64,000 nt of DNA from Lachnospiraceae bacterium (GTDB taxonomy: Bacteria; Bacillota; Clostridia; Lachnospirales; Lachnospiraceae): contig JALENY010000037.1 of NCBI GenBank assembly GCA_022767285.1, positions 1 through 64,000 of the forward strand, given 5' to 3'. The notes below the pieces were generated by a model, which searched no databases, had not been told where the DNA came from, and saw only the letters and a program-made list of their open reading frames with translations. Of this stretch, positions 24,425 to 30,277 are shown in pieces. Position 1 is the stretch's first letter, and each line of letters opens with the position of its first letter. The position numbers were made by a program, and so were the translations under genes.

Positions 24425-25571
24425 AGGCTATATGAAAGTCATAACCAAGACCCTTCCGCAGATACTCATGTACTTCGGTATTTTTCTTGCCATCTATCTT
24501 ATGATATCTCTGACGGAAGCAGATTCTCCTGTGACGGACTTTTCCGCCAAACGTCTTTCGGTATCGGTGATTGATTATGACGGCGGAGTACTGGCAGAAG
24601 GCCTGACCCGATATATCGGTCTTCAGCACGATCTGGTATCACTTCCGGATGACAACAACACGCTTCAGGAAGAATTGTTTTACCGCAACATTGAATACAT
24701 CGTCTATATACCGGAAAATTTTGAACAAGTATGTCTGGAAGGGAAGCAGCCGCTGGAAACCGTCAAAGTTCCGGATTCCTATTCCGGCTTTTATGTAGAC
24801 CGGTGTATCGATCAGTATATGAATCAGATTCAGGTTTATCATTCTGCCGGCTATACACTGACGGAATCGGTCGATAAAGTCATTGCCTCGCTGGAAAAGA
24901 AACCGGATGTACGCTTTCTGGATGTGGAAGCCGCAGTGGTCCCTCAGTTTTACTACCTGTTCCGCTTTCTTCCATACCTGATGATCGCGATTATGTGCTA
25001 CGGAGTCAGCACGGTGATCGTCACGTTCCGGCAGCGTGATATGCGGATGCGCATGAACTGTGCGCCTGTCTCTCCCATATCACAGAGTTTTCAGGCAATT
25101 CTGGCATTTGCCCTGCTTGGTACCATTTACCTGATCGCATGCCTTCTCCTGGCTTTCCTGCTGGACGGAAAAGAACTGCTTCAGGCATCGCATCTGAATT
25201 ATTACATCATCAATGCGGTGCTCTGCACGGGATTAAGCCTGGCTCTTGCTTTCTTTGTGGGGATGATGGCAAAAAGCGCTGTGATTATTACCAATATCGT
25301 AAATGTTCTCTCCCTTGGACTGTGCTTTTTGGGCGGGGTTTTTGTCCCTCTTGATTTTCTCAGCGAGGGTATAACAAAAATGGCCCAGTTCCTTCCTGTC
25401 TATTGGTATATACGCATCAACGACACACTCATACAGTTCCCTGAACTGACAGAAACGACACAGGCCACCGTAAATCGTGGAATCCTGATTCAGGTTGTCT
25501 ATATTATCGCACTGATCTGCATTGGACTGGTGGCGGGACGCATCCGCTCTCAGGATTCGGCAAAGGTGTGA
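24411..25571 (+). CDS. ABC-2 type exporter permease (LnrN-like)
   Basis: 386 residues with the same plan as the preceding permease: N-terminal helix (about 15-35), extracytoplasmic domain to about residue 180, then five to six helices (LPYLMIAIMCYGVSTVIVTF; LGLCFLGGVFVPLDFL). AGGAGG is 7 bases before the ATG and lies inside the end of the previous gene. It converges on the maf gene, with only a weak hairpin (GGTGTGAAA with TTTTCACC, 25564-25588) between. Confidence 0.92.
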   Translation: MTVFKGYMKVITKTLPQILMYFGIFLAIYLMISLTEADSPVTDFSAKRLSVSVIDYDGGVLAEGLTRYIGLQHDLVSLPDDNNTLQEELFYRNIEYIVYIPENFEQVCLEGKQPLETVKVPDSYSGFYVDRCIDQYMNQIQVYHSAGYTLTESVDKVIASLEKKPDVRFLDVEAAVVPQFYYLFRFLPYLMIAIMCYGVSTVIVTFRQRDMRMRMNCAPVSPISQSFQAILAFALLGTIYLIACLLLAFLLDGKELLQASHLNYYIINAVLCTGLSLALAFFVGMMAKSAVIITNIVNVLSLGLCFLGGVFVPLDFLSEGITKMAQFLPVYWYIRINDTLIQFPELTETTQATVNRGILIQVVYIIALICIGLVAGRIRSQDSAKV

Positions 25572-28710: not shown

Positions 28711-28740
28711 TTGAATTTTATTCTCATTCTGATGTATAAT
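28711..28740 (+). promoter_or_regulatory. Promoter of the first MATE exporter gene
   Basis: Plus-strand TTGAAT (28711-28716), 18-base spacer, perfect TATAAT (28735-28740). Expected start near 28747, ten bases before a terminator hairpin. Confidence 0.65.
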
Positions 28741-28756
28741 ACCCACGTCGTGCAGC

Positions 28757-28801
28757 AGAATGCGTAAGTCCAGATTTTCTGGATTTGCGCATTCTTTTTT
28801 T
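28757..28801 (+). terminator. Attenuator-like intrinsic terminator in the MATE leader
   Basis: Arms 28757-28774 and 28778-28795 pair over 18 bp (AGAATGCGTAAGTCCAGA; two G-U wobbles, no mismatch) with a UUU loop, followed by seven U. It works only on the plus strand, and no plus-strand gene lies upstream, so it can only act on transcripts heading into the MATE gene. Confidence 0.85.
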
Positions 28802-28858
28802 GTTCTGACACCAGTCTCATAAGTAAATCTTTTCATTGTAAAACCGGAGGTAAATAAA

Positions 28859-30277
28859 ATGGAACAAACGAATCAATCTTTTCTTGCCACTGAAAAGGTC
28901 GGCAAACTCATGCGTAAATACGCCATACCATGCATCATCTCTCTGCTCGTGGGGGCACTTTACAATATTGTCGACCAGATTTTTATCGCCAATGCAACTT
29001 ATCTTGGCTCATACGGAAATGCCGCCAACACAGTTGTTTTTCCGCTTACGGTCATCGCGCTCGCAATCGCAGTCATGATTGGTGACGGATGCTGTGCTTT
29101 CGTCAGTCTGAATCTTGGAAGAAAGGAGCCTCAGGACGCAACGCGCAGCGTGGGTAACTCAGTCATTCTGACTATTGTTTCCAGCCTTATTCTGTGTGCG
29201 GTCTATCTTATCTTCAGCGATCAGATCATTACCATGTTCGGAGGCACCGTAAATGCGGAAACATTTGCGCATTCAAAAGAATACTTTTTCTACATTACAC
29301 TTGGTATTCCGTTTTATATGTTTGGTCAGGCTATGAATCCAATCATTCGTGCAGATGGTAATCCAAAATTTGCAATGATCTCCACGCTCGCCGGCGCGGT
29401 TGCCAATATTATTCTTGACCCGATCATGATTTTCATTTTCAAATGGGGCATGATGGGTGCAGCCGTTGCAACCGTAATCGGTCAGATTATCACGGCGGTC
29501 CTGGCAATCTGGTATCTGCTCCACACGAAGACAATCCGGCTGACAAAGACTGATTTTTCGTTAAAAATCGATATTGTTTCACGAACTCTGACTCTCGGAG
29601 TCTGCAGTTTCCTTTCACAGATTTCCCTGGTGGCAGCCATGGCTGCTATCAATAATATGATCCGCAAATATGGTGCCCTCGATGCCATCTTTGGTCAGGA
29701 ACAGTTTGCGCAGATTCCTATGGCAGTAGTAGGTATCGTAATGAAATTCTTCCAGATTGTCATATCGATTGTTGTGGGTATGGCTGCCGGATGCATTCCT
29801 ATCGTTGGCTACAACATGGGAGCCGGCCACAACGAGCGGGTTAAAAGCCTTTTTAGTCGGCTTCTGACTGCGGAAGCCTGCGTGGGCGCAGTAGCATTTA
29901 TTATTGTAGAATTCTTCCCGCAGCAGCTCATTAATATCTTTGGTGCTGCAAACGAAAGTATCTACTATACTGAATTTGCTGTAAAGGCATTCCGCACTTA
30001 CCTGTGTATGGTAATTCTGGCCTGCATAAATAAAGCAGCCTTCATCTTTCTTCAGGCCATGGGAAAAGCAGCCGCATCTACCATGTTGTCTCTGATTCGT
30101 GAGATTGTATTTGGTGTGGGACTCGCTCTCCTGCTTCCGCTCTTCTGGGGGCTGGACGGTGTACTTTATTCCATGCCCGTATCCGATGTATTGACTTTTA
30201 TCGTTTCCGTTATTGTGATACTGATGACATATCGGCAGTTGTCCGGGACAAGAACAAAAAAATCAAATATTGAATAA
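28859..30277 (+). CDS. MATE-family multidrug/Na+ antiporter
   Basis: 472-residue efflux protein with twelve predicted membrane helices in two homologous halves (SLLVGALYNIVDQIFI in the first; MAAGCIPIVGYNMGAGHNER opening the second). It probably exports cationic compounds or metabolites by cation antiport. CGGAGG lies 9 bases before the ATG. The 112-base leader contains a promoter and then an intrinsic terminator, so expression is probably induced by antitermination. Convergent with the GH13 gene, with a strong shared terminator. Confidence 0.93.
   Translation: MEQTNQSFLATEKVGKLMRKYAIPCIISLLVGALYNIVDQIFIANATYLGSYGNAANTVVFPLTVIALAIAVMIGDGCCAFVSLNLGRKEPQDATRSVGNSVILTIVSSLILCAVYLIFSDQIITMFGGTVNAETFAHSKEYFFYITLGIPFYMFGQAMNPIIRADGNPKFAMISTLAGAVANIILDPIMIFIFKWGMMGAAVATVIGQIITAVLAIWYLLHTKTIRLTKTDFSLKIDIVSRTLTLGVCSFLSQISLVAAMAAINNMIRKYGALDAIFGQEQFAQIPMAVVGIVMKFFQIVISIVVGMAAGCIPIVGYNMGAGHNERVKSLFSRLLTAEACVGAVAFIIVEFFPQQLINIFGAANESIYYTEFAVKAFRTYLCMVILACINKAAFIFLQAMGKAAASTMLSLIREIVFGVGLALLLPLFWGLDGVLYSMPVSDVLTFIVSVIVILMTYRQLSGTRTKKSNIE

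Follow-up and report, generated by a model that had tools for sequence, protein, structure and literature searches.

What does a long terminator hairpin do between the promoter and the coding sequence of an exporter gene? We addressed this question in a 64,000-nt stretch of DNA (the window) from a Lachnospiraceae genome of 2.67 Mb in 41 contigs. The original prediction had placed a promoter before a MATE-family exporter gene and, 10 bases past the expected start, an 18-bp hairpin with seven U; both are found there (Table 1). The position of the -10 hexamer puts the probable transcription start at a G near 28747, which agrees with the predicted distance to the hairpin (28757) and, together with the U run, with a predicted terminated RNA of about 55 nt. 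The hairpin has 18 pairs (7 G-C; G-U allowed) and a loop of 3 nt. The leader (28747-28858) has a minimum free energy of -32.5 kcal/mol compared to -19.3 kcal/mol (SD 3.14) for shuffled sequences, none of 200 shuffles being equally stable. A stem containing G+C, with a run of U after it, placed between a promoter and a gene is the arrangement of an intrinsic terminator or attenuator. In a 4-kb scan, we found six terminator-like sites compared to 4.5 (SD 2.0) in shuffles; the number of sites by itself is therefore not significant, and the 18-pair stem is the outlier.

As had been claimed, no gene lies close upstream on the same strand. The nearest plus-strand open reading frame taken for a gene (386 aa) ends at 25571, and shorter plus-strand frames upstream overlie topB. 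Because topB is on the other strand and divergent, the leader has no evident target other than the MATE gene. The interpretation of the hairpin as a promoter-proximal attenuator of this gene is borne out by sequence and comparison; the accompanying view that so short a leader could not be riboswitch-like is not, since a conserved element of about 29 nt runs from the transcription start and overlaps the terminator.

Table 1. Features of the exporter leader and its surroundings, in window positions
Feature	Position	Strand	Basis or remark
topB	28560-26371	-	directed away from the MATE gene
Sigma-70-type promoter, TTGAAT-18-TATAAT	28711-28740	+	10/12 consensus matches
Conserved RNA element, putative aptamer	28747-28775	+	models R1 and R2, covariation
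P1 of the element	28747-28749/28773-28775	+
P2 of the element	28755-28757/28761-28763	+
Conserved strands of the element	28750-28754 (GUGCA), 28764-28772 (GUAAGUCCA)	+
Terminator hairpin, 18 bp	28757-28795	+	terminator scan, leader folding
Seven-U run, terminator tail	28795-28801	+	first T closes the stem
RBS, GGAGG	28846-28850	+	sequence
MATE-family exporter, controlled gene	28859-30277	+	ORF with ATG at 28859; MatE Pfam, E 6.1e-32

A conserved, covarying RNA element at the start of the leader

We compared the leaders of 80 orthologous MATE loci from one-per-species genomes, the best 80 of at least 581. What is conserved is not the 18-bp stem but the element of about 29 nt, which recurs within the 220 nt upstream of the orthologues as (NNY) GNGUA GC..loop..GC GUAARUCC(A/G) (RNN). 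Its architecture is P1 (3 bp), GNGUA, P2 (2 to 3 bp), GUAARUCC(A/G), and the second strand of P1. Among these best 80 loci, the element is present in 79: 75 were found by regular expression and four more (L052, L054, L085, and L107) by model R1, and both methods found none in L079. The window copy scores 38.1 bits with R1. Because this copy sits in the R1 training set, we built a second model, R2, from 30 copies in other genomes; it recovers the window copy at 28745-28777, where the score is 38.9 bits, with E 2.7e-8 over 72.6 kb of sequence. The letters GUAGC and GUAARUCC presumably resemble 23S rRNA.

The first alignment (A1) was based on the regular expression, which fixes GUAA, CC, and the two G of GNGU, so the invariance of these letters in A1 is partly built in; rows L070 and L103 were re-split by hand. 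The model matches leave these letters free, although they are aligned by fitting to the model. Among 102 distinct model matches outside the training rows, G6, G8, U53, A54, A55, C58, and C59 are invariant.

The pairing is supported by compensatory changes. In A1 (78 distinct rows), 93.6% of cells pair, and the covariation score is 0.517 compared to 0.223 in shuffled alignments and at most 0.100 in slid ones. The model-match set, obtained from 99 loci and the window, comprises 112 matches (107 distinct) that were not preselected on pairing but were aligned to the model. Among the 107 distinct matches, each of the six pairs has examples in which both partners change; 93.9% of cells pair, and the score is 0.551 compared to 0.240 shuffled, falling to 0.080 or less when the partner is slid by one to three columns. 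The middle P1 pair occurs as AU, GC, UA, GU, and CG and is unpaired in none. There are two weak points: the outermost (third) P2 pair is unpaired in 36/107 copies, and the outermost P1 pair in 18/78 A1 rows. Copies from the genome searches, including the set of 206 used below, were kept only when the two inner P1 pairs form; pairing counts of that set are thus not evidence, whereas those of A1 and the 107 matches are.

The element is also positioned at the promoter. A -10-like hexamer (5 or 6 of 6 letters) lies 3 to 15 nt upstream in 158/206 copies compared to 22% of shuffled upstream sequences, with a spacing of 6 to 8 nt in 116 of the 158. Farther upstream, the motif CCTTTG(A/C) occurs within 60 nt of the element in 72/206 copies (0.6 expected from shuffles), and TGCAAAA-N2-4-CCTTTG lies around the -35 position in 29/206 copies (0 in 100 shuffles); the window copy has a different form. 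The CCTTTG motif could be a conserved promoter form, a protein site, or a mark of shared descent.

Two layouts of the terminator on the element

In the window, the 5' arm of the terminator overlaps three segments of the element: some of P2, the GUAAGUCC strand, and some of the 3' strand of P1. Because it uses that P1 strand, the terminator and P1 cannot coexist. Across the orthologues, the 18-bp stem itself varies: the terminator 5' arm captures the 3' half of the element in 32/84 copies (the window type), the 5' half in 51/84, and both in 1/84. Since either layout sequesters one P1 strand, the terminator and the conserved fold are mutually exclusive; since either layout also leaves one P1 strand outside the stem, the terminator does not account for P1 pairing. 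All 84 orthologue copies form both inner P1 pairs, whichever layout they have, and the pairs are of several types. In the wider set, a loose terminator finder exceeds the 95th percentile of shuffled downstream sequences in only 139/206 copies.

Given these observations, we consider it very improbable that the hairpin lacks a regulatory function and is simply a constitutive terminator or a mobile repeat. An 18-bp stem with seven U is a textbook terminator, and the number of terminator-like sites in the region does not exceed that of shuffles. A plain terminator would not, however, predict fixed unpaired bases, a nearby promoter, presence in 79/80 orthologue loci, or P1 covariation with one strand outside the stem. 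The element is no repeat, as R1 gives only two strong matches (42.1 and 38.1 bits) and two weak ones (19.9 and 18.6 bits) in the window's own 2.67-Mb genome. We counted the weakest (contig C10) as chance because GUAA is missing.

The two layouts would also place the leader among riboswitch-like RNAs in general: a conserved, covarying fold upstream of genes that excludes the expression platform. In the window, the P1+P2 fold alone has a free energy of +0.3 kcal/mol compared to -27.3 kcal/mol for the terminator, so something must stabilize the conserved fold. In stepwise folding of the leader, the terminator grows from 28782 on. The start of the transcript (28747-28775) is one copy of a conserved RNA element; the original prediction, which is partly supported, is too modest.

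Genes and genomes associated with the element

We took a census of 119 distinct genome-search loci. The regular expression missed 14/116 loci (10 were retried and missed again) and 3/27 later ones (L264, L267, and L273); these 17 loci, several of which still match the model, are outside the census, as are eight loci from the phylum search. The first gene encodes a MATE protein in 87/119 loci. Identity of these 87 proteins to the window MATE is at least 60% in 52 loci, 40 to 60% in 3, and below 40% in 32. Other genes after the element encode CarD-like regulators (by Pfam in L202, L210, and L241; by sequence likeness only in L213, L286, and L287), ABC and MFS exporters, cytidylate-kinase-like proteins, TetR, a SpoU methylase, UvrA, Cu/Zn SOD, an FMN oxidoreductase, and DUF2798 (one scored match, L260; L175, L259, and L274 alike by eye). 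Four of the 32 non-MATE loci are without an acceptable open reading frame, the first reading frames of several (L181, L230, and L235) look spurious, and some first genes start 167 to 499 nt from the element. Some of these neighbors may be accidental. Several non-exporter associations look unrelated to detoxification, and we count them against the reading of the element as a toxin sensor.

Two copies of the element occur in 8/76 orthologue sequences and 14/119 genome-search loci, and the loose finder assigns a candidate terminator to each tandem copy. Between the element and the MATE gene, 11 loci (L040, L042, L052, L053, L054, L088, L122, L129, L135, L144, and L203) carry a second conserved stretch, GGTTRTGGCAGCTTTCCT, which could encode a peptide starting MAAFL; a twelfth match (L077) was dropped because it is located elsewhere.

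The element occurs in 46/150 genomes of the family (E <= 0.01) and, at E <= 0.001, in 64/392 genomes of the order, 40/391 of the class, and 12/398 of the phylum. There is overlap between the samples, all of which contain the window's genome; 8 of the 40 class matches come from the window's order and 4 of the 12 phylum matches from its class. Strict filters drop weak copies. The element is widespread and apparently undescribed.

Within the window's own genome, there are 44 MatE domain matches, and the two strong copies of the element lie only before the window gene and an operon on contig C29. The latter copy, the strongest (42.1 bits, position 207865, L113 and L297), precedes genes for a BMC-domain protein and a rubrerythrin. 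A MATE paralogue with 67% identity (contig C3, 93691-93962, minus strand; L295) has no element in the 271 nt to the contig end; its upstream sequence resembles a promoter in one stretch and may form another hairpin, different from the window's, with a run of U. The 19.9-bit weak copy lies about 40 nt before the gene for an orphan 79-aa protein (MKRVKAACICQTLHF...SPVGNYLD; contig C33, 36967-37203, minus strand), which is also found in L108, L134, L120, and other loci. Several loci are ordered element, 79-aa gene, element, MATE gene; no element was seen directly before the 79-aa gene in L057, L061, L100, and L214. The protein is strongly conserved and has a beta-alpha-beta-beta AlphaFold model (pLDDT 72.7). 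It matches no Pfam family above cut-off, and the model has no PDB match at E <= 0.001.

A putative small riboswitch and its alternatives

We propose, with a probability of about two in three, that the leader is a terminator-embedded ON attenuator and most likely a small riboswitch. Transcription would start at or beside the first strand of P1. In the default state, the nascent RNA would zip into the 18-bp terminator and a transcript of about 55 nt would be released. A signal, most likely a small toxic molecule exported by the MATE pump, would bind the conserved fold, in which P1 and P2 hold GNGUA against GUAARUCC. The bound fold would keep P1 and block the terminator 5' arm, so that transcription continues past it and the exporter is produced. 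We infer the ON direction, the direct binding of a small molecule, and the identity of the signal; the exporter targets suggest a toxic small-molecule ligand.

The strongest alternative is a trans-acting RNA-binding protein that recognizes the hairpin with its internal loop and prevents the terminator, which we regard as unlikely, though deserving of weight. BglG/LicT proteins bind RAT hairpins, which lie before PTS and sugar genes accompanied by a cognate regulator. A hairpin of about 29 nt that has an asymmetric internal loop and is mutually exclusive with an overlapping terminator is RAT-like, and a small target with fixed loop bases fits a protein as well as a metabolite. Unlike RAT sites, the element was not seen with PTS or sugar genes and a cognate regulator, and it is common to divergent MATE genes and unrelated genes. 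The sole regulator candidate tested, the 79-aa protein, has matches in 9/150 family genomes (E <= 1e-5) compared to 46/150 for the element, with both in 7; we rejected it in this role because it has no match in 39 of the 46 element-bearing genomes. The combination of unrelated genes, tandem copies, and fixed unpaired bases favors a riboswitch over a dedicated protein.

It is less probable still that the element is a divergent member of a described class, or one already in print. Guanidine-IV was our first idea, given its MATE/mepA association. Guanidine-IV (GGAM-1 or mepA motif) and Gd4v RNAs also precede MATE genes (accessible text of PMC9788692) and are terminator-controlled ON switches, as we propose for the element. 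They are defined by two hairpins joined by a pseudoknot, about 95 nt in all (PMC7736828 and PMC9788692, in the parts available), whereas the window leader from expected +1 to U run is about 56 nt with one hairpin, the element itself being a single hairpin of about 29 nt with an internal loop that starts at +1. We rejected guanidine-IV on this architecture. PMC9788692 describes Gd4v as enriched in guts, with a ligand still to be found.

The HMP-PP riboswitch (thiS motif) is another parallel. It is an ON attenuator whose ligand-bound fold pre-empts the terminator (available sections of PMC6478431), with a tiny aptamer nearly all inside an intrinsic terminator and fixed bases at positions that would be free to vary in a plain terminator. 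The element shares this layout, including the embedding of the aptamer in the terminator stem and the ON direction that we propose here, which is likeness of layout rather than membership. HMP-PP RNAs are associated with HET-P and thiamin genes, may form a pseudoknot, and are often in tandem with TPP riboswitches; the element precedes other genes (87/119 loci MATE; no thiamin family among 19 first genes scanned, 2 of which matched nothing), is in tandem with itself, and lends either half to the terminator. We set thiS apart by its description, not by consensus letters. Two further sources bear on this alternative: PMC8632094 describes HRC-8-4, an hvrB-linked motif consisting of a terminator whose tip bases are conserved, compared here by description only, and PMC11109978 counts 48 terminator stems.

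Comparison with Rfam 15 argues against known classes. At the gathering threshold, no family was found on the element in the window and 50 loci, and none that is meaningful at a relaxed E-value in the window leader, one tandem leader, and 10 loci. Matches overlapping the element are all below threshold, the best being mir-7359 with 28.4 bits where 90 are required. Elsewhere in the window, a Clostridiales-1 RNA (RF01699, 89.5 bits) lies at 1-141 on the minus strand, cut by the window edge. Two genomes of a single genus have an azaaromatic (yjdF) riboswitch close to the element, on the opposite strand (L286:2638-2736(-) and L287:1289-1386(-)), at distances of about 1.1 kb in L286 and 0.1 kb in L287. 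This class (RF01764) has a 101-position aptamer of other structure and binds diverse nitrogen-containing aromatics (available text of PMC4793209); its proximity is no more than a lead.

We found no description of the element in the literature, with supplements and most subscription papers outside the search, so a prior description is possible; the accessible parts of PMC7736828, PMC9788692, PMC6478431, PMC11611296, PMC8632094, PMC11109978, and PMC6429828 do not describe it.

Ribosome-mediated attenuation through a leader peptide is the least credible alternative: the window has a 20-codon frame (MRKSRFSGFAHSFFVLTPVS) that begins with the ATG at 28761, and some ATG occurs at any position within the first 40 leader nt in 41/84 copies, but we rejected this peptide because the short frame is not conserved (an ATG at the window's place in 15/84 orthologue copies and 33/206 of the wider set), no clear RBS was seen before the ATG in the window, and conservation is at the RNA level with compensatory changes.

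For the proposed riboswitch, we judge the chances evenly balanced that it represents an undescribed class: about 29 nt, among the smallest known, located within the first bases of the transcript, working through two opposite platforms, and shared as a toxin sensor by unrelated detoxification genes of gut and other Clostridia. If so, the identity of the ligand would suggest both the cargo of these MATE pumps and a toxin that these bacteria meet, and many exporters with substrates yet to be named would share one signal that can be tested. A small sensor with two interchangeable platforms would offer a clean model of how aptamers and terminators evolve, and it may provide a handy part for controlling expression in Clostridia.
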